Source: Methanobacteriota archaeon
GTDB lineage: Archaea > Thermoproteota > Thermoprotei_A > Sulfolobales > Sulfolobaceae
Direction of reading: 5' to 3'
Assembly: GCA_017857195.1 (NCBI GenBank)
Contig: JAFMDM010000006.1
Location: forward strand, 1-35,288
Length of the DNA stretch: 35,288 bases
The notes under the pieces were generated by a model that saw nothing but the letters and a program-made list of their open reading frames with translations, did not search any database and was not told where the DNA came from. Below are positions 2,330 through 27,840 of the stretch, piece by piece (within the stretch, counting starts at the first letter, position 1; every line of letters starts with the position of its first letter). Both the position numbers and the translations under genes were made by a program.

Positions 2330-4345
2330 ATGTCAAAGGTGGACATAATCCCAGTAGCGGAGAACGGATTAATGGTCTCGTTTGGGAATCATAGGACACT
2401 ATCGTTTAGGGAGGTACAGTATAATGGGAAGTGTAAGATCACTTTGAAAGTTGGGGAGAGGATAACGTTCTCAGCTGATGGGGAGGAAATATTGTTAGAT
2501 TTGAATAGGGAAATCTCCCCCGACGGCCACCTACACCACACCATGAAAATGAGGGGAACTGGGTTTTACGGTCTGGGCCAACATCCCGGCTTCTTCAACT
2601 ATGAAGGCAGAGAGGTAACCCTGACTCAAAGGAACGGCGAAATAGGCATACCCTTTCTTCTGAGCAACCACGGTGTAGGTGTGATATGGGATCTATATTC
2701 CATGTCAAGGGTGAGGGTGGGCAGATCAAATGGGTGGGCACAGGTGGACCTATGGGCTGAGGAAGTAGATGGCCTTAACTATTACGTGATCTATGGCCCC
2801 AGTCCTGATGACATAATACGCACGTACAGAGAATTGTCGGGAGGAACACCCATGCTTCCAAGGTGGGCGTTCGGCTATTGGCAGTCAAAGGAGAGGTATG
2901 CCTCCCAGAGCGAATTGATGGAGGTGGTTGAAGAATTTAAGAGGAGGAACATACCTCTGGACGTTATAGTCCAGGATTGGATGTATTGGGGGAAATATGG
3001 ATGGAACGCCATGAAGTTCGATGAGTCTAACTACCCTAACGTGAAAGAGGCTACACGTAGAATACATGAGTTAGGTGTACACGCGGTCATATCGGTCTGG
3101 CCGAACTTCGGTCAGCAGACTGAAGTGTTAGGGAGAATGTACCCGCACCTCATACCTGGAAGCCTAAACTACGACCCATCGTCTGAGGAAGGGAGGTTGG
3201 CATATTGGAATGAGGTGAGGAAGTTATTGGATATGGGGTTCGACGGTCTTTGGCTTGATGCCTCTGAACCAGAGCTATTCAAGCCCACCGGAGGGGACAG
3301 GGGGACGTACACCTTCTACTCTGGACTGAGGGACTCCACTCTCAAGGTAGGTAAAGGTTCCTCTTATCTCAACGCCTATCCTTATCTGCATTCCGTTGGG
3401 ATCTATGAGAACTGGAGGAAGAGTTTCCCAACCAGGCCGGTGATCTTGACCAGGTCAGCCTATCTAGGGCAACACGTCACAGGTGCAATAGTTTGGTCTG
3501 GGGACATCCATCATGATTGGGGAGTGTTGAAGGCACAGATTCAGGGTGGGCTGAACTTCAGTGCCTCTGGGCATCCCTACTGGACCACGGACACTGGGGG
3601 TTTCTTCAGTGGAGATCCCTCCAGCGAATCTTACGGCGAAATATTCGTGAGGTGGATACAATGGTCCGCCCTTTGTCCGATAATGAGAGTGCATGGGACA
3701 GGATATCCAAAGGAACCTTGGAGGTTCAAGAATGAGGGTGTAAGAAGGGCAATAGAGTTGAGATATAGCCTGCTACCATATATCTACTCCCTGGCCTGGA
3801 TGGTCACAAGGGGGTATACCATGATGAGGCCGCTGTTCATGGACTTCCCATGGCTGGTGGATGTGGACGATCAGTATATGTTAGGTCCGTTCCTGATGGT
3901 GAGTCCTGTCACTTTTCCAAAGGTGAGGGAGAGGGAGGTTTATCTCCCGGGAGGATGGTACGACTTCTGGACCAATGAGAAAGTGGTGGGAAAGGATAAC
4001 GAGACGGTTAAGGTGAAGGCACCTTTGGAGAGGATACCGTTGCATGTTAGGGAAGGTTCCGTGCTGCCGCTGGGTTCCATAAACGGGGCGGAACCCATGG
4101 AGTTGAGGATATATCCTGGAGGAAACTCCTCATTTGACCTCTACTTCGACGAGGGAGACGGTTGGGGGTATGAAAGTGGTGATTATCAAATAGTGCGCTT
4201 GGAGTTAAAGGATGGGACATTGAGTATATCCTCAACAGGTAAGTTAAAGCTAAAACACGAGTTCAAGGTAACTGTGCTGGGTAGAGAGATAAAGAAGCTA
4301 AGCTACACGGGCGAGTCAACGTCACTGAACTATCCGGTCCTCTAG
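2330..4345 (+). CDS. xylS: GH31 alpha-xylosidase / alpha-glucosidase (XylS-like)
   Basis: This 671-residue glycoside hydrolase family 31 enzyme would cleave terminal alpha-linked xylose (as from isoprimeverose or xyloglucan oligosaccharides) or glucose in the cytoplasm; there is no signal peptide. The GH31 barrel spans about residues 175-510. The nucleophile is Asp310 in WLDASEPE and the likely acid/base is Asp392 in WSGDIHHDW. The GYWQSKERYAS and VQDWMYWG stretches are typical of the YicI/XylS branch rather than the MalA branch. It is somewhat shorter than Sulfolobus solfataricus XylS (about 731 residues), mainly at the N-terminus. The frame is closed by a TAG at 2315-2317, so ATG 2330 is the first possible start; a weak aggaag lies 8 nt upstream. 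Co-location with lacS recalls the XylS-LacS partnership in xyloglucan breakdown. Confidence 0.88.
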   Translation: MSKVDIIPVAENGLMVSFGNHRTLSFREVQYNGKCKITLKVGERITFSADGEEILLDLNREISPDGHLHHTMKMRGTGFYGLGQHPGFFNYEGREVTLTQRNGEIGIPFLLSNHGVGVIWDLYSMSRVRVGRSNGWAQVDLWAEEVDGLNYYVIYGPSPDDIIRTYRELSGGTPMLPRWAFGYWQSKERYASQSELMEVVEEFKRRNIPLDVIVQDWMYWGKYGWNAMKFDESNYPNVKEATRRIHELGVHAVISVWPNFGQQTEVLGRMYPHLIPGSLNYDPSSEEGRLAYWNEVRKLLDMGFDGLWLDASEPELFKPTGGDRGTYTFYSGLRDSTLKVGKGSSYLNAYPYLHSVGIYENWRKSFPTRPVILTRSAYLGQHVTGAIVWSGDIHHDWGVLKAQIQGGLNFSASGHPYWTTDTGGFFSGDPSSESYGEIFVRWIQWSALCPIMRVHGTGYPKEPWRFKNEGVRRAIELRYSLLPYIYSLAWMVTRGYTMMRPLFMDFPWLVDVDDQYMLGPFLMVSPVTFPKVREREVYLPGGWYDFWTNEKVVGKDNETVKVKAPLERIPLHVREGSVLPLGSINGAEPMELRIYPGGNSSFDLYFDEGDGWGYESGDYQIVRLELKDGTLSISSTGKLKLKHEFKVTVLGREIKKLSYTGESTSLNYPVL

Positions 4346-5530: not shown

Positions 5531-5546
5531 GTCGGTTTATACCGAC
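5531..5546. promoter_or_regulatory. perfect inverted repeat, candidate operator
   Basis: gtcggt-ttat-accgac is a perfect 6-4-6 inverted repeat. It lies 13 nt upstream of the TATA box (5559-5568) of the sugar-oxidation operon and within the divergent region shared with the aldo/keto reductase. Position and symmetry suggest a binding site for a dimeric regulator. No regulator gene is present in the window. Confidence 0.5.
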
Positions 5547-5558
5547 TCCCTGGACTAA

Positions 5559-5568
5559 CTTTTTTACC
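5559..5568 (+). promoter_or_regulatory. TATA box of Gfo-TIM-Gfo-MFS operon
   Basis: cttttttacc is centred 26 nt before the ATG at 5589 and only 20 nt before the upstream in-frame ATG at 5583. It therefore favours 5589 as the leaderless start. Confidence 0.55.
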
Positions 5569-5588
5569 ACGGACTCCTAAAAATGTTG

Positions 5589-6677
5589 ATGATTAAGCTC
5601 TGCACCATAGGGGCGGGAAGTTGGGTCCAGGAGGGCCACATGCCCGCCATAAGGGAGGTCGATGGGATTAAGTTAATCGCAGTCTCGGACGTGGATGAAC
5701 GGAGAGTGAAACTTTTTCAGGAGAAATATGGAGTAAAGGGATACTCGGATTACAACGAGATGTTGGCCAAGGAGAGTCCAGACGCAGTATTAGTGGCGGT
5801 GCCTCACGTACTCCACGCTAAGGTAGCATCTCAAGTGCTCGAGGCGGGAGCCCACGTCTATCTGGAGAAACCCATGGCTACCAATTTGGAGGACGCCATG
5901 GCGTTGGCTCAATTAGCGAAAAAGCGGGGGAAGATGGTCATGATAGGTCACGAACACAGGTTCGGCCAGGGCTCCGTGATCGCAAGGAGGTTACTTGAGT
6001 CAGGCAGGCTGGGAAGGATCTATCACTCAAAGGCCGAGTACGTGAGAAGAAGGGGAATACCCGCGGGACCAACTTTCGTGACAAAGGAATTGGCGAAGGG
6101 TGGGGCACTCTTCGATATTGGCTCACATGTCATAGACCTCGCCATGTTCCTCTCAAACTTCCCCAGACCAGTGAAAGCTTACGGTAGGACATACATGAAC
6201 TTCTCGGAGAGAAGGGAGATGTTCTCAAATTATCCAAAGACTCAGAGGTCCAACAGGCTGGAGGTGGAAGATACCGCGCTTGGGTTGGTGACCTTTGAGG
6301 ACGGTTCAACAATGTTCGTGGAGGCCAGTTGGGCATCCTTCACTAAGGTTGACAGGAGACATGTTGCGGTGATGGGAGATAAGGGCGGAGTGGATCTAGA
6401 GGGGAACGACCTTTCGTTCATGACCACAGTGGACGGAGAGTTCATGAACTCCCAACCAATTCAAGGTCAACAGTTTCTCTATCAAGATATATGGAGGAAG
6501 TTCTCTGAGGCTGTAAGCTCCAACCTGAGCTCAGCTCCCTTCCCCGGCACCACCGCACAACAAGGGGTATTAGAAATGGCCGTAATGGAAGGTATATATA
6601 GGTCAGCAGAGAGGGGAGAGGAAGTTAGAATAGATGTGAATGTAAGGGAGCTCGGATGGGTGGATCATGATGCCTGA
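5589..6677 (+). CDS. Gfo/Idh/MocA family NAD(P)-dependent dehydrogenase
   Basis: This is a cytoplasmic sugar or polyol oxidoreductase of the glucose-fructose oxidoreductase/inositol dehydrogenase family, about 362 residues, the usual length. The N-terminal Rossmann fold has the glycine motif GAGSW near the start. The EKP motif carrying the catalytic lysine is at residues 95-97, and the substrate-side pair is Asp178 and His182 in FDIGSHVIDL (numbering from 5583). In-frame ATGs occur at 5583 and 5589; TATA spacing and the typical MIKLCTIGAG beginning favour 5589. It is the first gene of a tight operon, and the next gene starts inside it (11-bp overlap). Substrate is unknown; myo-inositol, a monosaccharide or a glycoside C3-hydroxyl are all possible. 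Confidence 0.88.
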   Translation: MIKLCTIGAGSWVQEGHMPAIREVDGIKLIAVSDVDERRVKLFQEKYGVKGYSDYNEMLAKESPDAVLVAVPHVLHAKVASQVLEAGAHVYLEKPMATNLEDAMALAQLAKKRGKMVMIGHEHRFGQGSVIARRLLESGRLGRIYHSKAEYVRRRGIPAGPTFVTKELAKGGALFDIGSHVIDLAMFLSNFPRPVKAYGRTYMNFSERREMFSNYPKTQRSNRLEVEDTALGLVTFEDGSTMFVEASWASFTKVDRRHVAVMGDKGGVDLEGNDLSFMTTVDGEFMNSQPIQGQQFLYQDIWRKFSEAVSSNLSSAPFPGTTAQQGVLEMAVMEGIYRSAERGEEVRIDVNVRELGWVDHDA

Positions 6678-7356
6678 ATTTCCACTGGGAGTTCAAAGCT
6701 ACACCTTCAGGAAGCTGGGATTCGAGGCCGCCATTGACTACTCTAGGTCTAGGGGGTTGAATGTAATTGAGGCCTACCCAGCCCACGTACCGGTTGGGGA
6801 CAAAACGAAGGCGCTCATGGCCAAGGAGCGAGGAGTGAGAGTGGCCTCTCACGGGGTAAACAGGCTGGACCAGGGATCTCAGGACCTGTTTAAATTCGCC
6901 AAGGAGTTGGAACTTCTCCTTGTGGTGGATCCCGCCCCCGGCTCGCTGGCTCAACTTGAGGAGATGGCCTCCAACTACCACGTGAAGTTGGCCATTCATA
7001 ACCACGGACCCACCCACAGATGGGGCTCAGCCCTGAGGACTGGGGAGGAAATCACACCTTACCCCCACCTTGGACTCTGTCTTGACCTCGGACATTTGGC
7101 CAGGTCGTCTGAGGACCCATTTAAGGTTGTGGAGAAGTATGGGGAGAAGGTATTTGACGTTCATCTCAAGGACCTTGATGTGGAAGGAGAGGACGTTCCC
7201 TTGGGAAGCGGCGTATTGAAAGTCTGGGATTTCCTCAAATATCTCAAGGGTACGGCCCTAAGACCATTATTAATGGTGGAATATGAGGCGGAACCGGAGG
7301 ACCCTTACAGGGGAGTAGATCAATCCCTTGCCTTGGTTAGGGCGGTGATGAGATGA
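6667..7356 (+). CDS. sugar phosphate isomerase/epimerase-like TIM-barrel protein
   Basis: This 229-residue protein belongs to the xylose-isomerase-like/AP endonuclease 2 TIM-barrel superfamily, which includes IolE/IolI and 3-keto-sugar-processing enzymes. Metal-site and active-site stretches are visible: Glu35 in NVIEAYP, IHNHG at 110-114, Asp140 and His143 in CLDLGH, His166 in DVHLKD, and Glu207 in VEYE. It is shorter than the usual 260-290 residues, with the shortfall in the N-terminal third, but no key strand is obviously missing. It overlaps the upstream dehydrogenase by 11 bp (8 bp if the second ATG at 6670 is used), with a ggtgg ribosome-binding site. The next gene overlaps it by 4 bp. 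Sandwiched between two dehydrogenases, it would act on their oxidised sugar product; the exact reaction is not readable. Confidence 0.82.
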   Translation: MMPEFPLGVQSYTFRKLGFEAAIDYSRSRGLNVIEAYPAHVPVGDKTKALMAKERGVRVASHGVNRLDQGSQDLFKFAKELELLLVVDPAPGSLAQLEEMASNYHVKLAIHNHGPTHRWGSALRTGEEITPYPHLGLCLDLGHLARSSEDPFKVVEKYGEKVFDVHLKDLDVEGEDVPLGSGVLKVWDFLKYLKGTALRPLLMVEYEAEPEDPYRGVDQSLALVRAVMR

Positions 7357-8372
7357 ACCTGGGGGTGCTTGGCACCGGGTTCGTGGTGGATACGTTTCAC
7401 ATGCCGTCCCTTAGTGAGATCCCAGATGTCCGTGTTGTGGCGGTAGGTTCCAGGAGGCCTGAGGAATTCGCCAGGAAATGGAGTGTGAACAGGTATTACA
7501 GGGGCGACTCCTTTGTTGAGGACCTATGCGCGGACAAGGAAGTGGAGGCCGTTTTGGTGGCGTTACCCAACTTCCTTCACGAGAAGGCCATAACCCTTTG
7601 CGCGGAAAGGGGCAAGAACATAATAGTGGAGAAGCCACTTGGAAGAAATTCCGACGAGGCGGAGAGGTCCCTTAAGGCGGTGGAGCGATACAACGTTCTG
7701 CACGGATACGCTGAGAACCAGGTCTTCATACCTCAGCTGGTTAGGTTAAGGTCGATGGTGGAGAGGGGGGTTCTCGGAAGGTTGGTGTGGGTGAGGTCCA
7801 GGGAAGCCCATTCCGGTCCCCATAGTCCGTGGTTCTGGAACAAGGAGCTATCGGGCGGCGGAGCGTTGCTGGACATGGGATGCCATTCCGTGGAGGTGAC
7901 TAGGAAGATATTCGGCGTGGAACCCTCTCAAGTTATGGCATGGGACAGTCTAACCGTTCATAGTGATAAAACAACGGCGGAGGACAACAGTTTGGTCCTC
8001 CTGAGGTTCGGGAAAAGGCTAGGACAGGCGGAGAACAGTTGGACAGCCAAGGGAGGATTGGACCTCAGGTACGAGGTCTATGGAAGCGATGGTTCCGCCT
8101 TTGTGGACGTGACCAGAGAGACGGGACTAAGGATCTTCACAACCTCCAAGGTGGACTACGTTGTGGAGAAGGCAGATGTGACAGGAGGGTGGCTTTACCC
8201 AACCTGGAGAGAACATGAACTATACGGGTATCTTGACGAGATGAAACACTTTTTGGACTCGTTCAAAAGGGGGGAGATGCCAAAGGAGAACCTTAGGGAC
8301 GGCCTTCGAGTGAACAGGATATTGGACGCTGCGTATAGGTCCATTTCCTCAGGGAGGTGGGAGACACCATAA
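7353..8372 (+). CDS. Gfo/Idh/MocA family dehydrogenase, second operon copy
   Basis: This 339-residue NAD(P)-dependent oxidoreductase has a GTGF nucleotide-binding turn at residues 7-10, an EKP motif at 93-95, and Asp174/His178 in LLDMGCHSVE. It belongs to the same family as the first operon gene but is clearly divergent, so it probably handles a different substrate or step. The ATG overlaps the upstream stop by 4 bp (atga). A perfect ggtga Shine-Dalgarno sequence at 7344-7348 supports the start and translational coupling. The cytoplasmic product probably works in series with the TIM-barrel protein, one dehydrogenase oxidising the imported compound and the other reducing or re-oxidising a product. 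That order is inference. Confidence 0.87.
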   Translation: MNLGVLGTGFVVDTFHMPSLSEIPDVRVVAVGSRRPEEFARKWSVNRYYRGDSFVEDLCADKEVEAVLVALPNFLHEKAITLCAERGKNIIVEKPLGRNSDEAERSLKAVERYNVLHGYAENQVFIPQLVRLRSMVERGVLGRLVWVRSREAHSGPHSPWFWNKELSGGGALLDMGCHSVEVTRKIFGVEPSQVMAWDSLTVHSDKTTAEDNSLVLLRFGKRLGQAENSWTAKGGLDLRYEVYGSDGSAFVDVTRETGLRIFTTSKVDYVVEKADVTGGWLYPTWREHELYGYLDEMKHFLDSFKRGEMPKENLRDGLRVNRILDAAYRSISSGRWETP

Positions 8373-9490
8373 ATTTCTCAAGACTATGGGGTTCCCTCTC
8401 CAGGATCAAGCAGCTTCAGTTTGGGCTGATGTATAGTTCGGTGGTGGGGTTAGTTTACCCCCTGGTTCCCCTCTATCTTAAGGTGAGAGTTCTGGAGTTG
8501 AGTATAATACTCTCCTCCATTTCCATGAGTGCCTTCATATCCAGTATCTTATGGGGGAGAGTTGCCGACTCTCGGGAAAGAAGGAGAAAGGTGATATGGG
8601 CCACCACCCTAGGAGGAGCCCTTTCCTATGGATTTCTTGCCTTGAGCCCTCCCCTCCCTGTTTTCGTGGCCCTTTTGCTGATTGCGAACGCATTCACACC
8701 AGGCGTGGTTCCTGTTGCCATGGCTGCGGTCAGTGAGGCTGAGGACTCCCACTCTCGGATGGGTAGTTTTTGGATAGGCAGTTCCCTTGGCTATGCAGTA
8801 GGCACCATGGTCACAGGCTTCGCCTTGCAGAGATTTGGCGTTACACCTGCGTTCGCCACATCATCAATCATGCTGATACTAATCCTTCTCATAAATGGTC
8901 GTCCTTCTACCCCCCTTAGGAGAAATGAAGTTAAAGTGAGGGGAATATCAATTAAATTCTGGGTATTCACGTTGGTTACTGTTTTCTTCCTTTTCACTGA
9001 CGTGGCAAAGAACCTCTACATTCCACCCTTCTTCGCCTTTAAGCTCCATTTGGGGGACGCTTTCGCCACTGCCTCATTGTCAGTTGAGGCATTACTTGAG
9101 GTACCAACAATTCTACTGTTCAACAATCTCATTAAGAGGGCGGATTCCTGGAAGACCATGGGTTTGGGTGTTATTTTTGGGGCCATGTACCTTATCTTAA
9201 ACGCCACTGCCTTCAACTTGGTATCATCTCTACTGGACATGTGTTCCTATTGTCTCGTGTGGGGAGCTTTCAGCGTTTCAAGTACGACCATGGTTTCTAG
9301 GTTGAGCGGCCTGCAGAGCAGGGGGACAGCTTACGGAGTCTATAATGCCACCCTTCCATTGGCCAACGTAATGGGACCGCTCTATGTGGGAGCGTTCATA
9401 AATGAGCTGGGTTATAGGATGGGTTTAGTTACCATGTCTGTTCCGCTGATTGTGTTGGGGATGATCATGATCCTTTGGTGGAAGGTCTAG
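8357..9490 (+). CDS. MFS transporter
   Basis: This 377-residue polytopic membrane protein has about 11-12 hydrophobic segments. A motif-A-like loop, GRVADSRERRRKV, lies after the second segment (about residues 66-78) and is diagnostic of the major facilitator superfamily. It is probably the importer for the substrate of the three enzymes encoded just upstream. The GTG at 8357 sits directly behind agggag and overlaps the previous gene by 16 bp; a later ATG at 8429 would remove the first 24 residues and cut into the first membrane segment, so GTG is preferred. The operon ends here, followed by an R1 repeat. Substrate unknown. Confidence 0.8.
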   Translation: MGDTINFSRLWGSLSRIKQLQFGLMYSSVVGLVYPLVPLYLKVRVLELSIILSSISMSAFISSILWGRVADSRERRRKVIWATTLGGALSYGFLALSPPLPVFVALLLIANAFTPGVVPVAMAAVSEAEDSHSRMGSFWIGSSLGYAVGTMVTGFALQRFGVTPAFATSSIMLILILLINGRPSTPLRRNEVKVRGISIKFWVFTLVTVFFLFTDVAKNLYIPPFFAFKLHLGDAFATASLSVEALLEVPTILLFNNLIKRADSWKTMGLGVIFGAMYLILNATAFNLVSSLLDMCSYCLVWGAFSVSSTTMVSRLSGLQSRGTAYGVYNATLPLANVMGPLYVGAFINELGYRMGLVTMSVPLIVLGMIMILWWKV

Positions 9491-9709: not shown

Positions 9710-11155
9710 GTGCTATCCTTTCCAACCGACTTCAAATTCGGGTGGTCACAGGCAGGATTTCAGTCTGAGATGGGCCTCGGAGACGTGGATCCCAACAGTG
9801 ATTGGTTCAAGTGGGTTCATGATCGCGAGAACTTAGCGGCAGGTTTGGTAAGCGGTGACTTGCCTGAGGACGGTCCAGCATATTGGATGAATTATGAGAC
9901 ATTTCACAATAACGCAGTATCCATGGGTCTAACCATGGCGAGAATAGGGGTGGAGTGGTCCAGGCTCTTCCCAAATCCTCCCTCCACACCAACCTACGAG
10001 GAAAAGGAAGGAAGGGTGACCGACGTGAATGTTGATGACATAAAATTGCTGGACCAATACGTCAATAAAAAGGCCCTTGAACACTATAGACAGATATTCA
10101 AGGACCTGAAGTCCAGGGGGATTTACTTCGTCCTGAACCTATATCATTGGCCCATGCCCCTTTGGGCTCACGACCCCATTGCGGTGAGGAAGGGTCAACT
10201 GAATGGACCCATCGGGTGGCTAAGTACCGTCAACGTAGCTCACTTCGCCAGGTTCTCAGCTTATGTGGCATGGAAATTTGACGACCTGGTGGACGAATAC
10301 TCCACCATGAACGAGCCTAACGTGGTGTGGGGAAACGGCTACATGGGGGTGAGGTCAGGCTTCCCTCCTGGGTACCTGAGCTTTGAACTAATGGAAAAGG
10401 CCTTTAGGAACATTGTTCAAGCACACTGCAGGGCCTATGATGCAATAAAGTCTGTTACCAAAAAGCCTGTGGGCGTGATATATGCCAACACCGCCTTCGA
10501 GCCCCTAACTGAGGCTGATAGGGATGCCGCAGAGATGGCTGAAAGGGACGGGAGATGGAGGTTCTTTGACGCCATAATCCACGGCAAACTTGGAGACGAG
10601 ACCAGGGAGGACCTCAAGAATCGCCTAGATTGGATAGGGGTGAACTACTACACCAGAACCGTAATAAGGAAGAAGGGTGATGGATACGCAGGAGTTCCTG
10701 GATATGGGCATGGTTGTGAAAGGAACTCCCTAAGCCAAGACGGGAGGCCCACAAGTGACTTCGGTTGGGAGTTCTACCCAGAGGGGCTTCAGGACGTTCT
10801 GCTCAAGTATTGGCGCAGATATGGGCTGAGAATGTACGTCACTGAGAATGGAATATCGGACGAAGGGGACTATCAGAGACCGTACTACCTTACCACTCAC
10901 CTATACAACGTCAAAAAGGCCATTGAGGGAGGTGCAGACGTAAGAGGTTACCTCCACTGGTCCCTGACTGACAACTATGAGTGGGCCTCTGGATTCAGCC
11001 AAAGGTTCGGGTTAATTCAGGTGGACTACGAGAGTAAGAGGCAATTCTGGAGGCCAAGTGCCTTAGTTTATAAAGAGATCGCCAAAAACAGGGGAATACC
11101 AGACCACCTAGAGCATCTCAACAGAGTGCCTCCAATTAAGGGGCTAAGACGGTAG
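9710..11155 (+). CDS. lacS: GH1 beta-glycosidase (LacS)
   Basis: This 481-residue family 1 glycosidase hydrolyses beta-glucosides, beta-galactosides and short cello-oligosaccharides in the cytoplasm. The sequence follows Sulfolobus solfataricus LacS almost throughout, for example [15 protein letters not shown] at the N-terminus and a C-terminal EHLNRVPP segment. The catalytic acid/base is Glu202 in TMNEPN and the nucleophile Glu379 in VTENG. Length matches the family (489 in S. solfataricus). The start is GTG at 9710, supported by TATA spacing and by the family N-terminus MxSFP. It is the partner expected for the alpha-xylosidase upstream in degrading xyloglucan fragments. It is transcribed alone, as a small gene on the opposite strand follows. 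Confidence 0.97.
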
Positions 11156-13936: not shown

Positions 13937-16801
13937 ATGAGGACAGTTCAAGAACTTGAGGCCAGATTGAACTACGTATTGGCGTCTTCATTTAGACGTC
14001 CGAAATTCCTGTCGTGGGAGAGGAATGGAAATGTTGGAAGGGTTCAGGTGGACTCCTCTGGAAGGAACTATGAACTCATGGTGTTGAACTTTGCCGGGAG
14101 TGCCCTGGTAAAGTTGGACGGTAAACCACACTTCGAATTGGACAGATATCACTTGGCCGTGCCCGTACCTGCGGGGAGTCACGTGGTGACCGCAGAGTTC
14201 TCCAATCTAATGGACTTCGGGGAAAGGGTTGAGTTGAACATGGGTACCCCAGTGGGAGTGGAGAGGGATCCTGATGCTCTCAGGCTATGGATATACGGTA
14301 ACACGATATTAGATGTTGTGAGGAACGTTGGAGACAGGGAGGTGGAGGAGGACCTATTAGAACTACTCAGCAAGGCCATGAGCGTTGCCTCATTCAGGTC
14401 GGTCTCCAGGGACCAACTATTCTTGGCTGTCAGAGCCATGGGCCTACCCAGATGGGTGGAAAGGTTCCCGGCCTCCATAGACGACGACCTCTCTCAGGTT
14501 TATGTGGAAAACGATAATCCACATTACGGGAAGGCCCTGGAATTATTGAAGGAGGGATTAGGTGAGCTCAGGAGGAAGTACGGCAAGAGAGGCCTCTTGA
14601 TAGGTGTAGGACATGCTCACATAGATACTGCGTGGCTCTGGAACTTCGATGAGACCAGGAGGAAAGTCCATAGAACTTTTTCCACCGTGTTAACTCTCAT
14701 GGAAAGGTACGACTTTCATCACGTGCAGAGTGCCTCAATTTACTATGAGTGGTTAAAGGAGGATTACCCAGATCTCTTCCAGAGGGTAAAGGAGAGAGTG
14801 AAAGAGGGAAAATGGGAGCTCGCAGCCTCCTACGTGGAGACGGACACCAACATGGTGACTGGAGAATCCCTAGCGAGACAATTACTTTACTCGCAGAGGT
14901 TCTTCCAGAGGGAATTTGGCAGAAAGGCTGACGTGCTCTGGCTTCCTGATACGTTCGGTTTTGCCTCCACCTTACCTGAAATTGCCAGACTGGGTGGGGT
15001 AAAATATTTTGCGACTCATAAGGTATTCTGGAACGATACCAACGTTTTCCCATATAACATCTTCCATTGGGTCGCACCTGATGGTGGGAAGATTCCTGCG
15101 GTAGCCTTTGGGCATGGAAAGGGTGGGTATAACTCAGACTTCTCAGGGTCCAGCGTCCTTGAACAGTGGAGGAACTGGAAGGAAAAGGATCAGCCAATGC
15201 TTTACGCTTACGGGTACGGGGATGGTGGAGGAGGCCCAACAGAAGAGATGCTCCTGAGAGCTGAGGCGGTAAAGCAGCTCCCTATCCTTCCAGAGGTCTC
15301 CCTCGGCGGGGTAGGCGAGGAGATGCAAAAGATCAGCCCTAGGGAGGAGTGGAGGGGAGAGCTGTACGTAGAGACCCACAGGGGAGTCTTTACATCTCAC
15401 TCCATGATGAAGCAACTCAACAGGAGGGCTGAACTGTCATTGAGGGACGCTGAGCTTTGGTCTTCGTTGTCTGGAACCTATGACCGGGAGAAGTTCCAGA
15501 GGCTTTGGAAGGTTGTGCTCAAGGATCAATTCCATGATGTTCTCCCAGGTTCGGCCATAAGGGATGTTTATAAGGTTGCTTACAAGGAGTTGGAGGATGT
15601 GATCGGGGAAGCCAAAAGACTCAAGGAGGAGGCGCTGAGGAAGATGATAGGGGATGGAAATGATTTGTTTGTATGTAATTCCCTCCCCTGGGAACGGACA
15701 GAATTGGTGGATGCGGAAGGTTCCATGGTACTAACCAAGGCAGTTCCCATGGGTTGTACGAAAGTTTTGCCAGTGGAGAACAATGGAGATAGTGTAAGAG
15801 AGGAGAACGGCTCTCTGGTCCTCGACAACGGTACTCTGAGAGTTACAGTGTCCAGGGAGGGACTATTGGAGTCCGTTTTAGATATCAAGGAGGGAAGGGA
15901 GATCCTGAAGGGCCCAAGTAATAGGATAGTTATATACGAGAATATCCCAGGTCCCAACGACGCTTGGGACATTGAGAGGTCCTACCAGGAAACTTCAACC
16001 GAGGTGAAGGCCACTGAGGTACGTGCCTTGAACGCTGGGAAAATAGGGGTGATAAGGATAGTGAGGGAGTTCGGGGAAAACAGGATAGTTCAAGAGGTGA
16101 GGCTAACCCCCCTCTCGGACAGGATCGACTTCTTCACCTCGGTTAAAATGCGGGACAGGGAGCTCATGGTTAAGGCCCTATTCGACCTCAACATTAACGC
16201 CGAGCATTTCGTTGTAGATGCGCCTTTCGGTGTGACATGGAGACCAACACACACAAACACCTCGTGGGATGAGGCTAGATTTGAGGTCCCCATGCAGAAG
16301 TTCGTGGACCTCCAAGAGGGAGATTATGGAGTAGCTCTGCTAAACGATGGTAAATACGGTGTTTCTGTAAGGGGAAGTTCGGTGGGCATAACCATCACCA
16401 GGACGCCTATTTTCCCAGACCCGGCTACAGATCTGGAGGAGTTTTCCTTCACCTACTCTCTCCATCCACATAGGGGGTGGGCCCTAAGGAGGGCGTGGGA
16501 ACTTAACGTACCCTTAACTGTAATAAGGGGAGAGAAAGGTGTCACACCGCTCACAGTGGAGGGAGAGCTGATGCTTGAGGCAATTAAGGTAGCAGAGGAT
16601 GATAATTCGCTGGTGTTCAGGTTTTTTGAGTTCCAGAACAAGAGAGGAAAATGTAAACTGACTTTCAACAGGCCCGTATTGGAGGCGTGGAAGACCAACC
16701 TATTGGAGGAACCCACGGAAGGAGTTAAGAGTGAGGGAAGGACTGTAATCTTCACTTACAGTAACAGGGAGATAGTAAGTTTGAAGGTCAAACTAGGCTG
16801 A
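13937..16801 (+). CDS. GH38 alpha-mannosidase
   Basis: This 954-residue zinc-dependent family 38 glycosidase removes alpha-linked mannose from oligosaccharides or glycan chains. The catalytic domain covers roughly residues 215-600. It shows GHAHIDTAW at 225-233 with zinc ligands His228 and Asp230, the nucleophile and zinc ligand Asp303 in ETDTNMVTGES, the WLPDTFGFAS segment at 336-344, and GYGDGGGGPT further on. The C-terminal third is the beta-sandwich region of the family. No signal peptide is seen, so it is probably cytoplasmic. The ATG at 13937 fits TATA spacing. Its 3' end overlaps the convergent dehydrogenase gene by 14 bp. A homologue of this type lies in the equivalent sugar-gene cluster of S. 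solfataricus. Roles in demannosylation of own glycoproteins or in scavenging mannosides are both possible. Confidence 0.95.
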   Translation: MRTVQELEARLNYVLASSFRRPKFLSWERNGNVGRVQVDSSGRNYELMVLNFAGSALVKLDGKPHFELDRYHLAVPVPAGSHVVTAEFSNLMDFGERVELNMGTPVGVERDPDALRLWIYGNTILDVVRNVGDREVEEDLLELLSKAMSVASFRSVSRDQLFLAVRAMGLPRWVERFPASIDDDLSQVYVENDNPHYGKALELLKEGLGELRRKYGKRGLLIGVGHAHIDTAWLWNFDETRRKVHRTFSTVLTLMERYDFHHVQSASIYYEWLKEDYPDLFQRVKERVKEGKWELAASYVETDTNMVTGESLARQLLYSQRFFQREFGRKADVLWLPDTFGFASTLPEIARLGGVKYFATHKVFWNDTNVFPYNIFHWVAPDGGKIPAVAFGHGKGGYNSDFSGSSVLEQWRNWKEKDQPMLYAYGYGDGGGGPTEEMLLRAEAVKQLPILPEVSLGGVGEEMQKISPREEWRGELYVETHRGVFTSHSMMKQLNRRAELSLRDAELWSSLSGTYDREKFQRLWKVVLKDQFHDVLPGSAIRDVYKVAYKELEDVIGEAKRLKEEALRKMIGDGNDLFVCNSLPWERTELVDAEGSMVLTKAVPMGCTKVLPVENNGDSVREENGSLVLDNGTLRVTVSREGLLESVLDIKEGREILKGPSNRIVIYENIPGPNDAWDIERSYQETSTEVKATEVRALNAGKIGVIRIVREFGENRIVQEVRLTPLSDRIDFFTSVKMRDRELMVKALFDLNINAEHFVVDAPFGVTWRPTHTNTSWDEARFEVPMQKFVDLQEGDYGVALLNDGKYGVSVRGSSVGITITRTPIFPDPATDLEEFSFTYSLHPHRGWALRRAWELNVPLTVIRGEKGVTPLTVEGELMLEAIKVAEDDNSLVFRFFEFQNKRGKCKLTFNRPVLEAWKTNLLEEPTEGVKSEGRTVIFTYSNREIVSLKVKLG

Positions 16802-17846
16802 CCTCCCTGCCCTTCTGTGAGGAGCGATATATGCCATCGATTATGGAGTGGAGCACCAAGCTTTGCCTAAGGTTTGGAAAGGGCTCCCTGCCCTCCCTCA
16901 CTGAGGATACAAACTCCTCCACTATGGCCTGATGGAGGTCCACTTTCTTCAGTTGCGGCCTAACATCGACCACCTTTCCTCCCAATACTCCATGAAATGA
17001 GACTTCGTTCATGGCTTCATCCCCTCTCATCTCCGAGCCACCCCTTTCACCTAGGATGCGTACAACTCCCACCTCCCCCTGGTGTGAGACGTTTCCAGCC
17101 CACCCTACTTCAACTGACATCATGAAATCTTTGAATCTAACCATTCCCACGGCGTAATCTTCAAGGTCAAAGGTTCTTGGGTCCCAGGAACCCCAATTCA
17201 ATTTCACCTCCTCTTCCCTGTTGCCGAACTTGGTGTAAATCATTCCACTCACGGTCAGCGGAGAGGGGAAGTCTAAGGGAGAGAGAGCGTTATCTATGGC
17301 GTAGCAACCGATATCAAGGAGAGCTCCCCTTCCTCCGTTCAATGACTTATCCAAGAATGTGGGTATTCCTGGGATTCCTCTTCTTCTCACCAGGTAAGTG
17401 GTGATCAGGTACACTTCCCCAACCTCCTCTCTGACCAGTCGAGAGGCGTAGGAAAGTGCTGGGGAGAACCTGGACCAGTAGCCTACCATCACTTTCCTTC
17501 CCGTTTCTCTGGATGTCCTCTCCAAATCCTCCACCTGCTCAACAGAGGAGGCCACGGGCTTGTCCACTAGGACATGCGCTCCTTTCCTTAAGATATCCTT
17601 AGCTACGGAATAATGAAGCCCAGTCGGTGTGACGACACTAACGAGATCTGGAGTCTCCCTATCCATCATTTCAAGGTGATCTGTGTAATACCTAACTCCG
17701 AATTCCTCTCCGACCTTATGTGCAACTTCTTCCTTTACGTCCACCACCGCAACCACCTCAACATTCTTCACCTTAAGGTATGGAACCAGATGTCTATTCC
17801 TACCATGTCCACCTACTCCCACCACCGCAACCTTCAATTTTTCCAT
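16788..17846 (-). CDS. Gfo/Idh/MocA dehydrogenase, glucose-fructose oxidoreductase/xylose dehydrogenase-like
   Basis: This 352-residue NAD(P)-dependent sugar dehydrogenase has a glycine motif GVGGHG at about 10-15 and the catalytic-lysine motif as DKP (95-97) instead of EKP. It has Asp178 and Tyr182 in LLDIGCYAID, where the other family members in this window have His. Tyr at that position is characteristic of the Zymomonas glucose-fructose oxidoreductase, dihydrodiol dehydrogenase and D-xylose dehydrogenase branch. An aldose such as xylose or glucose is therefore the likely substrate, giving the lactone. The ATG at 17846 has a strong TATA box 27 nt upstream. Its stop lies inside the 3' end of the alpha-mannosidase gene (14-bp overlap). 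As a candidate first enzyme of the pentose oxidation route represented at 26375-28709, it is attractive but unproven. Confidence 0.87.
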   Translation of the reverse strand: MEKLKVAVVGVGGHGRNRHLVPYLKVKNVEVVAVVDVKEEVAHKVGEEFGVRYYTDHLEMMDRETPDLVSVVTPTGLHYSVAKDILRKGAHVLVDKPVASSVEQVEDLERTSRETGRKVMVGYWSRFSPALSYASRLVREEVGEVYLITTYLVRRRGIPGIPTFLDKSLNGGRGALLDIGCYAIDNALSPLDFPSPLTVSGMIYTKFGNREEEVKLNWGSWDPRTFDLEDYAVGMVRFKDFMMSVEVGWAGNVSHQGEVGVVRILGERGGSEMRGDEAMNEVSFHGVLGGKVVDVRPQLKKVDLHQAIVEEFVSSVREGREPFPNLRQSLVLHSIIDGIYRSSQKGREVSLV

Positions 17847-19029: not shown

Positions 19030-19842
19030 ATGCGGGAGTTGCAGTGGAATTTAGGGATCATATCTGACGAGATCTCCCAACACTTTGAGCATGCAGTCAA
19101 GGTGATCGTGGAGCTTGGTGCAGGATACGTCGAGTTGAGAAACCTTTGGGGAAAGAACGTGACCGAACTTTCTGAGCAGGAGTTATCTCAAGCTATCACT
19201 TTAGTGAAGTCTGCGCGATTAAAGATCTCAAACCTTGACTCTCCAGCTTTTAAATGCCGTTTAAGTGACGACAATTCTTACAAAAAACATCTTCAGATAC
19301 TAAGAAAGGTTGTTGAGATCTCAAAGAGACTCGACCTAAGCTATACTAGAATATTTACGTTCTGGTACGAAGGTCAGTTAGAGGACGTCATGGATAAGCT
19401 TGAGGAACGTTTCGGGCCGGCAGTGGACCTGGCGGCAAGTGAAGGAATTACCTTGGTTATAGAGAACGAATACAGCTGTACCGTAGGTACAGGAGCTGAA
19501 ACGAGGAAATTCCTAGATAGGTTGAAGACGAGGTGGGTGAGGGTATTATGGGATCCTGGGAACGCGTTCTTTGCCAGGGAAACTCCGTTCCCCAGAGGAT
19601 ATGAACAGGTTAAGGACAACATACTTCACGTTCATTTAAAGGACGCCTCAGTTATTAATGGAAACTTCGTATGGTTACCCATAGGGGAGGGAAGTATAAA
19701 CTACTTTGACTTCTTCAGGGCCATGAAGGGAAAGAGCCAAGTTTTATCGTTGGAGACCCACTACAGGGTGCCCTCAGGGGACCCAGAGGAGAGCACCAGA
19801 AGGTCTTTCCAATCAATGATGTCCATACTAAGGGAGATATGA
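19030..19842 (+). CDS. sugar phosphate isomerase/epimerase-like TIM-barrel protein
   Basis: This 270-residue member of the xylose-isomerase-like TIM-barrel superfamily has normal length for the family. Candidate metal ligands in order are Glu145 or Glu147 in VIENEY, Asp175 in LWDPGN, His202 in HVHLKD, and Glu242 in SLETHY. VELRNLWG near residue 35 is the usual first-strand motif. It would isomerise, epimerise or dehydrate a sugar or keto-sugar in the cytoplasm; relatives include inosose dehydratase, hydroxypyruvate isomerase and keto-sugar epimerases. The ATG at 19030 fits TATA spacing. It differs from the operon copy at 6667-7356 in keeping the Glu-rich ENEY rather than HNHG, so the two are not interchangeable. 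It appears monocistronic. Confidence 0.83.
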   Translation: MRELQWNLGIISDEISQHFEHAVKVIVELGAGYVELRNLWGKNVTELSEQELSQAITLVKSARLKISNLDSPAFKCRLSDDNSYKKHLQILRKVVEISKRLDLSYTRIFTFWYEGQLEDVMDKLEERFGPAVDLAASEGITLVIENEYSCTVGTGAETRKFLDRLKTRWVRVLWDPGNAFFARETPFPRGYEQVKDNILHVHLKDASVINGNFVWLPIGEGSINYFDFFRAMKGKSQVLSLETHYRVPSGDPEESTRRSFQSMMSILREI

Positions 19843-20254: not shown

Positions 20255-20488
20255 ATGCCCATGATAACCGTTAGGGTGGATCAGGAGCTGAAGACCAAGA
20301 TGGAGGAACATCCAGAGGTAAATTGGAGTGAGGTCATAAGGAAGGCCATAAGGGATGAGCTGGAGAAGGTGGGGAAAAGGGATGTTGCAACTGCCCTCTT
20401 GCTCAATGAGAAGAACAGAATTAGCGGCCAGCAGACAGAAAGTTCGGAGGAGATACGAAGATGGAGATCGTTGTTGACTCCTCAGTGA
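20255..20488 (+). CDS. vapB: VapB antitoxin, ribbon-helix-helix
   Basis: This 77-residue antitoxin would neutralise the VapC nuclease encoded next and repress the operon. Residues 3-10 (MITVRVDQ) form the beta ribbon of an RHH/CopG DNA-binding fold. The following WSEVIRKAIRDELEK is the helix pair, and the C-terminal tail, rich in charged residues and ending RRWRSLLTPQ, would wrap VapC. ATGs occur in frame at 20243, 20255 and 20261; TATA spacing favours 20255. A palindromic tgtatatac overlaps the start region and may be the autoregulatory operator. It overlaps vapC by 28 bp. Confidence 0.85.
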   Translation: MPMITVRVDQELKTKMEEHPEVNWSEVIRKAIRDELEKVGKRDVATALLLNEKNRISGQQTESSEEIRRWRSLLTPQ

Positions 20489-20874
20489 TCTCCAAGTGGT
20501 ACTTAATGGAAAGGTACTCCGAGGAGGCCCTGAAGTTGAGAGGAAAGTATGTAACTGGTGAATTGGAGATATCCGCACCGTGTTTCATGCCCGCCGAGGT
20601 AATGAAGGTCATAGAGACCGCAGTCAGGAGTGAGGAAAGCTTGGTTGAAATATCCAAGAGCCTCACACTTTATGGCTTCAGACTCTACCCTATCAGTTAC
20701 ATGGGAGAAAAGGCGGCCACCTTGGCCTGGGAAAATGACATGGACTTCCTGGAGGCATGCTACGTGGCATTGGCTGAAATACAAAGAGTTCCCCTGGTTA
20801 CAGCTGACGACGTACTCTATGAGTCCTTGAAGGGAAAATTCACCTGGATCAAACATGTGAGGGGTTTTACTTAA
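20461..20874 (+). CDS. vapC: VapC toxin, PIN-domain ribonuclease
   Basis: This 137-residue PIN-domain protein is the toxin of a type II toxin-antitoxin pair and is expected to cleave tRNA, rRNA or mRNA. Acidic site residues appear as Asp6 in IVVDSSV, Glu46 in MPAEV, Glu98 in the DFLEACYVALAE segment (where Asp is more usual), and Asp116 in LVTADD. Length is normal for the family. A strong ggagga Shine-Dalgarno sequence sits 9 nt before the ATG, inside the vapB coding region, so the pair is co-translated. The 3' end overlaps the convergent dehydrogenase gene by 8 bp. VapBC pairs are abundant in Sulfolobales. Confidence 0.9.
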   Translation: MEIVVDSSVISKWYLMERYSEEALKLRGKYVTGELEISAPCFMPAEVMKVIETAVRSEESLVEISKSLTLYGFRLYPISYMGEKAATLAWENDMDFLEACYVALAEIQRVPLVTADDVLYESLKGKFTWIKHVRGFT

Positions 20875-21820
20875 GGCCTGAGGAGTATATGTCTAAGGTT
20901 GCCTTGAGATCGTAGGCTGCCTCATGTGGCGAAAATGGAACTTCGGAGTCCTCTTGAATTGCCTTGAGGAATTGACTAAAAATCAATTGATAGAGGTCCT
21001 CATCCTCAATTTCCTCCCTACGTCCGTTCACCAAAATAGGACCGTAGGGTGCCATCCTCCCCTTGGGCCTATCCCAGACGTCGTCCACAATGCTTCCGCC
21101 ATCTCCCACCACCTCAAACCTTGGGAGGAGGGGAGGGTTGGGGTAGGCCCAGCTATAGAACAGAAAACCGTGTGCTCCCCCTTGAAATTGAAAGATGGCC
21201 AGAGTGGTGTCCTCTCCCTCTATTGCCCCTGCTCCATTATGGACATAGGCCTTAACTTCCTCATACTGGCCTCCGAACTGAAGGAGGGTGTCCACGAAGT
21301 GAACTCCCCCGTCAATTAACGCACCTCCCCCCATTTGGGTTCTCTTCCTCCTCCAATCCGTGCCGGACCACCTTGATTGGGACCGCACAATTATCGTGTG
21401 CACCTTACCTATCGTCCCCTGTTCTATTAACTCCTTTACACGCCTCACGGACGGATCGAAGTGGAACTGCTCGGTAACCATGAGCTTTCTTCCTGTTGCT
21501 TTGGAAGTGGATATCATTCGCTCCGCTTCCTCCATTGTGGTAGCCATGGGTTTCTCCACCGTAACATGTTTTCCCATCTCCATTGCCTTCACCGCCACTG
21601 GCATGTGCAGGTCGTGGGGCAAAACTATGTCGGCCACTTCCGCATTGGATCTGAGGGCATCGTTTAGGTCCGTGTATGTGGCCTTCGCCTCGAACTGCGA
21701 GGCACATTCCTGTACGGCTTCCTTGGACCTCGAGTAGACCTCCAGTTCAACGTCAAGTTTGGATAGGGCAGACAAGTGGACCCTTCCCCACCCCCTACAT
21801 CCCAACACCAATACTTTCAT
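20867..21820 (-). CDS. Gfo/Idh/MocA family dehydrogenase
   Basis: This 317-residue NAD(P)-dependent oxidoreductase is rather short for the family, with a compact C-terminal domain. The nucleotide turn is GCRGWG at residues 7-12, where the second Gly of the usual GxGxxG is replaced. The EKP motif is at 89-91, and Asp170/His174 lie in LIDGGVHFVD. It would oxidise a sugar or glycoside hydroxyl in the cytoplasm. The ATG at 21820 has a TATA box 26 nt upstream that falls across the stop codon of the clan GH-A glycosidase gene. The two same-strand genes can therefore be read separately even though only 22 bp lie between stop and start. Pairing with a glycosidase suggests that it acts on the released sugar. 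Confidence 0.86.
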   Translation of the reverse strand: MKVLVLGCRGWGRVHLSALSKLDVELEVYSRSKEAVQECASQFEAKATYTDLNDALRSNAEVADIVLPHDLHMPVAVKAMEMGKHVTVEKPMATTMEEAERMISTSKATGRKLMVTEQFHFDPSVRRVKELIEQGTIGKVHTIIVRSQSRWSGTDWRRKRTQMGGGALIDGGVHFVDTLLQFGGQYEEVKAYVHNGAGAIEGEDTTLAIFQFQGGAHGFLFYSWAYPNPPLLPRFEVVGDGGSIVDDVWDRPKGRMAPYGPILVNGRREEIEDEDLYQLIFSQFLKAIQEDSEVPFSPHEAAYDLKATLDIYSSGLK

Positions 21821-21840: not shown

Positions 21841-21850
21841 AATTATAAGG
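21841..21850 (-). promoter_or_regulatory. TATA box of dehydrogenase, inside the preceding gene's 3' end
   Basis: ccttataatt on the minus strand is centred 26 nt upstream of the ATG at 21820 and includes the stop codon of the glycosidase gene. Confidence 0.6.
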
Positions 21851-23612: not shown

Positions 23613-23633
23613 ATGAGATTCTGGAACCAAAGT

Positions 23634-26374: not shown

Positions 26375-27814
26375 ATGAATAGAGTAGGTGTATTCCTTGG
26401 AAAATATGTTATACCCGAGGAAAGGGAGTACTATCAGGTGAGGAACCCTGCTGATACTTCGGAGGTGGTAGGCGAGTTTCCTCTGATGATGAGGGAGGAC
26501 GTCAAGAGGGCTATGGAGGAGGCGGAGAAAGGTTTCCAATCCTGGTCCAACATGCTCCCAGTGCAGAGAGCTAACGTCCTTTATAGGGCGGCTAATTTGA
26601 TTGAGTCCAGGGCGAGTCAAATGGCGGAGCTCCTAACTAGGGAGGAGGGGAAGACCTTGCAGGATAGCATGTTTGAAGTCACTAGGACGGTCAACCTTCT
26701 CAGATTTTACGCCGGCCTAATAACCAGTAAGACCGGGAAGGTCATACCTTCTCAGGACCCCAGGACTACACTACTCACCTTCAGGGAACCATTGGGAGTA
26801 GTGGGAGTGATAACGCCTTGGAATTTCCCGCTTTCACTACCCGCCTGGAAGATAGTTCCTGCCTTGGCCACAGGGAACAGTGTGGTGTGGAAGCCAGCCT
26901 CCATTACCCCCGCAGTAGGAACGGAGTTCGTTAAAGCGCTCTATGACGCTGGATTGCCCGAGGGGGTGTTGAACACCGTCCTAGGTCCTGGAAGCACAGT
27001 TGGTGACGAGATGACCAGTTCCAAATTCGACGCACTTACCTTCACCGGTTCCCTTGAAGTAGGCAGGGAGGTGGCCAGGAAGATGGGCGGGAAGTTCGTG
27101 AGACTACAGCTGGAGTTAGGAGGTAAGAACGCCACTATCCTTTCAAGGAAGGGTAAATTATCTCTGGCTATAGAGCACGTGGTTAGGGCAGCGTTCGGTC
27201 TAACGGGGCAAGCGTGCACCGCAACCTCCAGATTCCTGGTTCCGAGGGAGCTACACGACGAAGTCGTAACGAAGCTGGTGGAAAGAACTAAGAGGCTAAC
27301 GGTCGGGAACGGACTTACAAAGGGCGTGGACGTGGGTCCCTTGGCCAGTAGGGAACAGTATGAAAAGGTCCTCTCCTACATTAAGGTGGGGAAAGAGGAG
27401 GGAGCCAAATTGGTCTTGGGTGGGGAGCCGATTAAGGAACATGAGAGAGGCTACTTCGTACAGCCTACCATCTTCGATCAAGTGACCCCAGAAATGAGGA
27501 TAGCCAGGGAGGAGATCTTCGGCCCTGTGTTATCCGTGATGACCTATGAGGGGATGGATCAGGCAATTGAGATTGTCAACGGCACTGAGTATGGACTGGT
27601 GGCGGAGATAGTAACGGACGACATTACGGAGGCAGTTGAGTTCTCCCGCAACGCTAAGGTTGGTGTGGTGAAGGTGAATAAGCCCACCACAGGTCTTGAG
27701 CCTTGGGTACCGTACGGTGGAGTTAAGGGTTCAGGTAATGACGTATACAAAGAAATGGGAGAGGAGGCCCTGGACTTCTTCACGAGGTATAAGGCAGTAT
27801 ACGTGGGTTATTGA
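26375..27814 (+). CDS. aldehyde dehydrogenase, probably 2,5-dioxopentanoate (alpha-ketoglutarate semialdehyde) dehydrogenase
   Basis: This 479-residue NAD(P)-dependent ALDH has the oxyanion Asn150 in TPWNFP, Lys173 in WKPA, general base Glu247 in LELGGKN, and catalytic Cys281 in GQACTA. Full length and intact. It probably oxidises 2,5-dioxopentanoate to 2-oxoglutarate, the last step of the oxidative pentose (Weimberg-type) pathway. That substrate is inferred from the next gene, which encodes the dehydratase forming exactly this compound, and from the same pairing in S. solfataricus. The ATG at 26375 is supported by TATA spacing. The stop lies 46 bp before the dehydratase start, which has its own TATA box, so the two genes may be transcribed together or separately. 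Confidence 0.9.
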   Translation: MNRVGVFLGKYVIPEEREYYQVRNPADTSEVVGEFPLMMREDVKRAMEEAEKGFQSWSNMLPVQRANVLYRAANLIESRASQMAELLTREEGKTLQDSMFEVTRTVNLLRFYAGLITSKTGKVIPSQDPRTTLLTFREPLGVVGVITPWNFPLSLPAWKIVPALATGNSVVWKPASITPAVGTEFVKALYDAGLPEGVLNTVLGPGSTVGDEMTSSKFDALTFTGSLEVGREVARKMGGKFVRLQLELGGKNATILSRKGKLSLAIEHVVRAAFGLTGQACTATSRFLVPRELHDEVVTKLVERTKRLTVGNGLTKGVDVGPLASREQYEKVLSYIKVGKEEGAKLVLGGEPIKEHERGYFVQPTIFDQVTPEMRIAREEIFGPVLSVMTYEGMDQAIEIVNGTEYGLVAEIVTDDITEAVEFSRNAKVGVVKVNKPTTGLEPWVPYGGVKGSGNDVYKEMGEEALDFFTRYKAVYVGY

Positions 27815-27831
27815 ACAGGTGAGGGTATCAA

Positions 27832-27840
27832 CTTTTTTAC
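27832..27840 (+). promoter_or_regulatory. TATA box of KDA dehydratase gene
   Basis: cttttttac is centred 25 nt upstream of the GTG at 27861. It decides the start: the longest frame would begin inside the previous gene at 27696. Confidence 0.6.

Follow-up and report, generated by a model that had tools for sequence, protein, structure and literature searches.

The window analyzed here is the whole of contig JAFMDM010000006.1 (35,288 bases), part of a 1.78 Mb genome assembly in 193 contigs that is 88% complete and represents a second Sulfodiicoccus species. Sulfodiicoccus acidiphilus HS-1, whose genome is 99% complete, served as the same-genus comparison. Four open reading frames (ORFs) are found on one strand in the order GFO1-TIM-GFO2-MFS (Table 1): two Gfo/Idh/MocA dehydrogenases, a TIM-barrel protein situated between them and a transporter of the major facilitator superfamily. 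The ORFs overlap by 11, 4 (ATGA) and 16 bp, and a TIM start at the next ATG gives an overlap of 8 bp. A four-gene operon with overlaps of 4–16 bp had been described in an earlier, sequence-only reading of this DNA, and the ORF calls and Pfam matches bear it out. The end of the span given there (5531–9490) agrees with ours; the coding region, however, starts at 5583 (or at the ATG at 5589).

HS-1 carries GFO1, TIM, GFO2 and MFS in identical order with identities of 74, 60, 76 and 62% to the window sequences, respectively. The flanks are also common to both, with an aldo-keto reductase (AKR), a family 31 glycoside hydrolase (GH31) and a second AKR before the operon, and GH1 and GH31 genes after it. 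Between window and HS-1 the nonsynonymous divergence (dN) of the four operon genes is 0.18–0.33 and the synonymous divergence (dS) is saturated; thus all four remain functional genes under purifying selection. None of the four proteins reaches an NCBIfam equivalog cut-off. The gene order, protein families, active-site residues, cofactor motifs and conservation described here are direct observations.

Approximately 35 bp ahead of the first GFO1 ATG is the element CGGTTTATACCGACT, whose 15 bases are identical in the window and HS-1. The 12-mer CGGTTTATACCG has its sole occurrence upstream of GFO1, both in the window and in the compared HS-1 regions. CGGTTTATACCGACT may be a promoter or operator.

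Table 1. Features of the operon, the TIM active site and neighboring genes in the window
Feature	Position	Strand	Basis
15-bp element CGGTTTATACCGACT, TATA-like core TTTATA inside CGGT..ACCG arms	5533..5547	+	identical in HS-1
GFO1, DgpA-like Gfo/Idh/MocA dehydrogenase, 364 aa	5583..6677	+	Pfam, PDB phmmer, motifs
TIM, AP_endonuc_2/xylose-isomerase-like TIM barrel, 229 aa	6667..7356	+	Pfam, profile, model, Foldseek
TIM H111-N112-H113, equivalent to AtOGE His132 (metal) and His134 (catalytic base)	6997..7005	+	8bvk profile alignment
TIM D140, equivalent to AtOGE Asp163 (metal)	7084..7086	+	8bvk profile alignment
TIM H166, equivalent to AtOGE His189 (metal)	7162..7164	+	8bvk profile alignment
TIM E205, expected place of AtOGE Glu233 (weak metal ligand, beta-8)	7279..7281	+	last-strand position
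GFO2, Gfo/Idh/MocA dehydrogenase, GenD2/KanD2-related, 339 aa	7353..8372	+	PDB matches, motifs
MFS transporter, 377 aa, GTG start (uncertain)	8357..9490	+	MFS_1 84 bits
GH1 beta-galactosidase BgaS (LacS type), starts 219 bp downstream of MFS	9710..11155	+	NF041004 821 bits, cut-off 475
GFO3, third Gfo/Idh/MocA protein, VRRRGIP kept, Tyr for catalytic His (GGRGALLDIGCYAID)	16788..17846	-	Pfam, motifs
TIM2, second AP_endonuc_2 protein, beta-5 Glu (VIENE)	19030..19842	+	Pfam
GFO4, fourth Gfo/Idh/MocA protein	20867..21820	-	Pfam

The dehydrogenases, the TIM protein and the transporter

GFO1 and GFO2 both show the PF01408 Rossmann domain and a PF02894/PF22725 C-terminal domain over cut-off, and the catalytic motifs are kept in each (EKPMA and GGALFDIGSH in GFO1, EKPLG and GGGALLDMGCH in GFO2). 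The two are divergent, as had been noted earlier; GFO1 and the GFO2 of HS-1 share a 29% identity. In a phmmer search of the PDB, GFO1 gives DgpA1 (9m3d, E-value = 3e-47) and DgpA (7xr9, 1.2e-41), with the next entry at 7.6e-24. The GFO1 segment VRRRGIP corresponds to IRRKGVP/VRRRAVP of the DgpA proteins, a substrate-side motif in common. DgpA uses NAD+ and oxidizes C3 of O- and C-glucosides (PMC11239390). GFO1 is proposed to be an NAD-dependent glycoside (3-)dehydrogenase of the DgpA type.

The PDB entries closest to GFO2 are 6nor (1e-36) and 6jw6 (1.3e-35), which we take to be GenD2 and KanD2. In the biosynthesis of gentamicin, GenD2 carries out the 3''-dehydrogenation (PMC4340712). Homologues of GFO2 with 54–66% identity are found in other Thermoproteota, and the genes neighboring them include no consistent partner that hints at a substrate. 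The residues that follow strand beta-2 differ between the two: Asp in GFO1 and in its orthologues, Ser-Arg-Arg in GFO2, and mostly Ser/Gly-Arg/Lys in the GFO2 orthologues. Under the common rule for Rossmann folds, these cofactor motifs suggest NAD for GFO1 and NADP(H) for GFO2. Such a split would suit one oxidizing and one reducing step, and GFO2 is proposed to be a keto-sugar reductase that uses NADP(H).

TIM belongs to the AP_endonuc_2 family (PF01261, 57 bits with a cut-off of 31.1). A structure model based on an alignment of 35 sequences (A2) displays a xylose-isomerase-like fold with a mean pLDDT of 95.1 and a pTM of 0.92. The nearest Foldseek matches are the Parabacteroides structures 3lmz, 3p6l and 4kw2, which have no assigned activity, followed by a broad spread of sugar isomerases, epimerases, IolE, and C-glycoside and glucal enzymes. 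The fold search suggested in the sequence-only reading thus fixes the superfamily; it does not discriminate the reaction, as many PF01261 enzymes score alike. Searched as a profile against PDB sequences, TIM is again led by the three unassigned entries, with 3lmz at the top (2.5e-84), and the first characterized match is AtOGE (8bvk, 2.2e-12), a 3-keto-O-glycoside beta-eliminase from Agrobacterium. Further matches are the glucal hydratase AtHYD (5e-6) and DgpC (3e-5). A grouping of TIM with endonuclease IV had been named as an outcome that would speak against the oxidative pathway. This identity is rejected, the profile E-value being 4.9e-6 for the endonuclease IV entry 5zhz vs that of 3lmz, and the Foldseek top 50 contains no entry described as endonuclease IV.

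The HNHG and CLDLGH motifs noted previously are present in TIM (IHNHG at residues 110–114, CLDLGH at 138–143). In the profile alignment to 8bvk, AtOGE residues His132, His134, Asp163 and His189 fall on H111, H113, D140 and H166. The alignment stops short of E205, which is equated with Glu233 by strand position only. According to the AtOGE paper, H134A of that enzyme is dead and H189A has <0.1% activity. H111, H113, D140, H166 and E205 are invariant in 10/10 archaeal homologues not picked by pattern, and E205 is also invariant in further TIM alignments, among them A2. Classical 3-epimerases (UlaE, tagatose epimerase) and YcjR carry a catalytic Glu at beta-5. Art22 and TIM2 of the window also have Glu at this position, where TIM has His111; the beta-5 Glu expected of a C3/C4 keto-sugar epimerase is therefore not found in TIM. 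As the His-x-His is common to AtOGE and IolE and Glu is found in the epimerase types, TIM leans toward beta-elimination next to a ketone and not toward epimerization. TIM is proposed to be a metal-dependent keto-sugar beta-eliminase, and this chemistry appears better supported than the substrate.

The linkage of GFO1 with PF01261 genes is seen in other genomes as well. A search of 398 Thermoproteota genomes gave GFO1 orthologues of approximately 45% identity in Saccharolobus and in the family of genome G078, presumably Caldivirga maquilingensis. A PF01261 gene adjoins GFO1 in both Sulfodiicoccus genomes (2/2) and in all Caldivirga-family loci (5/5), and a TIM2 orthologue then follows in four of these five. 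The adjoining TIM of the Caldivirga family is of another subfamily, and the five active-site residues are kept in the three copies checked. The presence of one dehydrogenase type with different TIM proteins is expected if TIM acts on the product of GFO1. Caldivirga splits the set: one locus reads GFO1-TIM-TIM2-GFO-TIM, and homologues of GFO2 and MFS and an AKR are situated about 40 kb off (L182, L183). In seven Saccharolobus species (L015-L021, near 9.4–10.5 kb) there is a TIM protein of 36–40% identity, usually by a GH31 gene and a Gfo gene farther away. No paper on these Saccharolobus genes was found in the literature searched.

The 80 bacterial relatives of TIM that were compared come mostly from Planctomycetes, Verrucomicrobia and Bacteroidota. 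The bacterial TIM proteins carry Tat-like leaders; TIM of the window has no signal peptide. At least five Bacteroidota-type loci (two in Mariniphaga, and one each in Maribellus, Rhodothermaceae and Pricia) have consecutive DUF1080, TIM and GFO genes, the last in one or two copies. DUF1080 is PF06439, with the family name 3keto-disac_hyd, and includes the 3-ketotrehalose hydrolase BT2157 (PMC9007349). Neither Sulfodiicoccus genome contains a DUF1080 protein.

The fourth protein was previously read as an MFS importer. The family is confirmed; the sequence itself does not show import, and the best NCBIfam match, well under its cut-off, is a model for sugar efflux. In Caldivirga, a homologue of 39% identity and the GFO2 homologue are 2.5 kb apart.

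Proposed pathway and alternatives

The operon is interpreted as a cytoplasmic oxidize-eliminate-reduce glycoside pathway of the DgpABC/Lgd/AtOGE kind, in which the glycosidic (or equivalent C1-O) bond is opened by redox chemistry and not by hydrolysis. We hold this interpretation with slightly better than even confidence. From the features above we infer every reaction, the regiochemistry at C3, the function of GFO2 as a reductase, the substrate and the direction of transport. MFS would move a small glycoside, anhydrosugar or oligosaccharide, and GFO1 with NAD+ would oxidize a ring hydroxyl, most likely at C3. TIM, holding a divalent metal through His111, Asp140, His166 and Glu205, would use His113 as base to abstract a proton adjacent to the keto group, and the aglycone would be lost by beta-elimination. 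Hydration of the resulting glycal may be spontaneous or catalyzed by TIM or TIM2. GFO2, probably with NADPH, would then reduce the keto-sugar, giving a free sugar that can enter the modified Entner-Doudoroff route.

Oxidation followed by isomerization or elimination, as put forward in the sequence-only reading, gains from the AtOGE-like metal/base site in TIM and from the DgpA-like GFO1; its polyol or inositol variant is possible and less favored. The further claim, that whole glycosides are imported and processed oxidatively since glycosidase and kinase are lacking, is weak. The operon itself has no glycosidase, yet a LacS-type GH1, two GH31 and one GH38 surround it, and exclusive oxidative processing is thus not shown. 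In Sulfolobales the Entner-Doudoroff route is modified (non- or semi-phosphorylative) and the absence of a kinase is expected, so the missing kinase says little. The modified pathway is mentioned for S. solfataricus (PMC12542729). S. acidiphilus uses lactose, maltose, sucrose, raffinose, xylose, arabinose, glucose and galactose (PMC8551704), and with sugar use this wide, several substrates are possible.

A number of findings weigh against the proposed pathway. GFO1 and GFO2 are far below every NCBIfam equivalog cut-off, and no known activity was found for any enzyme of the 3lmz/3p6l/4kw2 subfamily to which TIM belongs. In the profile search AtOGE (2e-12) is barely ahead of Art22 (5e-12), MJ1311 (2e-11) and IolE (7e-11); it is weak with the single TIM sequence (E-value = 0.19) and is not among the Foldseek top 50. 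IolE has the His-x-His at the same place as TIM. Alignment A2 was gathered with patterns that include IHNH and CLDLGH, which biases the conservation of those letters. Two Saccharolobus loci have a GFO1 orthologue and no TIM within 1.5 kb, and the Saccharolobus TIM homologue is found beside a GH31 gene without GFO1 alongside. Ordinary glycosidases surround the operon.

An epimerization cycle of the E. coli YcjQRS kind, in which GFO1 oxidizes C3, TIM epimerizes the neighboring carbon and GFO2 re-reduces without bond cleavage, has the same three-gene logic of two dehydrogenases around one PF01261 protein. YcjR (6wn6) is at Foldseek rank 14 (TMq 0.80) and matches the TIM profile at 1.4e-4, and two dehydrogenases suit oxidation and re-reduction. 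However, TIM has the beta-5 His where the two-Glu epimerases have Glu, and AtOGE is the better fit in the profile; such a cycle is a minor possibility.

The His-x-His of IolE bears on inositol or polyol catabolism, in which GFO1, GFO2 or both would act as inositol dehydrogenases and TIM would dehydrate the inosose as IolE does. The chemistry is identical, a beta-elimination next to a ketone, and the best NCBIfam matches are IolG for GFO2 (132 bits) and IolE for TIM (36 bits). These scores, though, are far off the cut-offs (355 for IolG and 290 for IolE), and IolD over cut-off is found in neither Sulfodiicoccus genome (88% and 99% complete), a result that concerns the IolD route and not the Thermotoga type. 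GFO1 is DgpA-like, and in the PDB order for GFO2 the aminoglycoside 3''-dehydrogenases come before 3ezy and the inositol dehydrogenase 4hkt. Inositol use is judged unlikely.

Another possibility is that the operon takes over once the neighboring glycosidases have acted, its substrates being free monosaccharides or 3-keto-sugars in place of glycosides. GH1, GH31 and GH38 genes adjoin the operon, and the Saccharolobus TIM is beside a GH31 of the same family as that of the window. Against this, enzymes of the DgpA type act on glycosides, free 3-oxo-glucose being only a hydride acceptor (PMC11239390), and the dedicated transporter within the operon suggests a substrate of its own, which leaves this arrangement quite improbable.

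Biosynthesis or salvage of an unusual sugar (surface glycan, aminoglycoside-like or N-glycan), and not carbon supply, would accord with antibiotic-sugar dehydrogenases as the nearest solved relatives of GFO2 and with a DegT/DnrJ/EryC1 aminotransferase adjoining the GFO2 homologue of genome G053 (L190), but it is the most doubtful of these alternatives, given that the Sulfodiicoccus operon is inside a conserved glycosidase and aldo-keto reductase block, that the scanned window genes include no glycosyltransferase or aminotransferase, and that the kin of GFO1 are catabolic.

Genes surrounding the operon

The operon is situated in a glycosidase island, with GH31 and two AKR genes upstream, GH1, GH31 and GH38 genes downstream, and two more Gfo genes and one more TIM protein in addition. 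Four of the six PF01408 matches over cut-off in the genome are found here within 16 kb. GFO3 could have an altered chemistry, with Tyr in place of the catalytic residue. TIM2 is a candidate hydratase or epimerase partner: its orthologues are 57–71% identical in Caldivirga, Saccharolobus and HS-1 and lie beside GFO1-TIM in Caldivirga, and a PDB search bearing on an AtHYD-like hydratase gave only weak matches to Art22 and MJ1311. HS-1 and Saccharolobus both retain the GH1 BgaS. Several components of the island are found again in Saccharolobus, namely GH38, GFO4 (46%), GFO3 (53%), GH1 (69%), an XylS-like protein (50%) and TIM2 (63%).

Several other features of the window were observed. The ORF at 21843-23630 (- strand) encodes a 595 aa protein with a sub-threshold Glyco_hydro_42M match; a Saccharolobus homologue of 44% identity (L184 4207-6000) adjoins GH38 and Gfo genes, and the protein is possibly a member of an uncharacterized glycosidase family. 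The HS-1 orthologue of the GH31 at 2330-4345 consists of two overlapping ORFs (L014 13461-15331), which suggests a frameshift or sequencing error. A short ORF at 20461-20874 (+ strand), PIN-domain-like by eye, overlaps the end of the convergent GFO4 by 8 bp. Positions 26375-31278 contain an aldehyde dehydrogenase, an ORF that by eye resembles fumarylacetoacetate hydrolase, a short-chain dehydrogenase/reductase and a solute-binding-like protein, perhaps a separate cluster for sugar-acid oxidation.

Comparison with known systems

Bacterial oxidize-eliminate-reduce routes for glycosides are recent discoveries. No characterized archaeal case was found in the literature searched, where absence is no proof. 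The operon may represent the first archaeal redox deglycosylation, reduced to three cytoplasmic enzymes: a thermoacidophilic eliminase flanked by a dehydrogenase linked to NAD and a reductase linked to NADPH, with the first activity for the 3LMZ/3P6L branch of PF01261; we advance this tentatively, as somewhat less than an even prospect. If true, the glycosidase islands of Sulfolobales would also contain a non-hydrolytic route as their second one, and 3-keto-sugar chemistry would gain thermostable enzymes. Members of the TIM subfamily occur widely in Planctomycetes, Verrucomicrobia and Bacteroidota, and a single thermostable representative from an archaeon could thus reveal an activity for this large orphan group.

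The system most alike is the levoglucosan pathway of Bacillus smithii and Paenarthrobacter, lgdA-lgdB1-(lgdB2)-lgdC with a transporter (PMC10066097). As proposed for the operon, an imported sugar is handled there by a single cluster with a Gfo dehydrogenase, a PF01261 eliminase, a Gfo reductase and a transporter. It differs in being bacterial and in having an ABC transporter with binding protein where the operon has MFS, and the levoglucosan dehydrogenase model NF052479 gives 91 (GFO1) and 81 bits vs a cut-off of 650.

The AtOGE/AtHYD operon of Agrobacterium tumefaciens shares H132, H134, D163 and H189 of AtOGE with TIM. However, the overall similarity of AtOGE to TIM is low, the oxidant there is the flavoenzyme GlycDH, and a separate hydratase, AtHYD, is part of the operon. 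DgpABC, which cleaves the C-glycoside puerarin in the gut bacterium PUE, likewise combines a Gfo protein with a PF01261 metalloenzyme, and DgpA is the nearest solved relative of GFO1. The CGE of that system, in contrast, is heterodimeric and has Glu as its beta-5 metal-site residue, whereas the operon has no gene for a beta-subunit, and DgpA itself reoxidizes its NADH with 3-oxo-glucose.

The 3-keto-glycoside cluster BT2156-BT2159 of Bacteroides comprises two Gfo genes, one PF01261 gene and one DUF1080 gene. The likeness is to the Bacteroidota TIM relatives in DUF1080-TIM-GFO-GFO clusters. The differences are the lack of DUF1080 in Sulfodiicoccus and of a Tat-like leader in the archaeal TIM; BT_2158_fam gives 55 bits with GFO1 and 20 with GFO2 vs a cut-off of 750, and the combination of BT_2158_fam/BT_2159_fam with DUF1080 is not found.

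YcjQRS of E. coli interconverts D-glucosides and D-gulosides with dehydrogenases and a PF01261 keto-glucoside enzyme of similar fold, but the epimerase has Glu at beta-5 where TIM has His. YcjQ is not known to be a Gfo protein. IolG-IolE also pairs a Gfo protein with a PF01261 dehydratase that has the His-x-His and eliminates next to a ketone, whereas GFO2 and TIM are below the respective cut-offs and the set of IolG, IolE and IolD is not recovered. Thus the operon is probably an archaeal member of a known bacterial pathway kind, and its TIM protein comes from a subfamily for which no activity is known.

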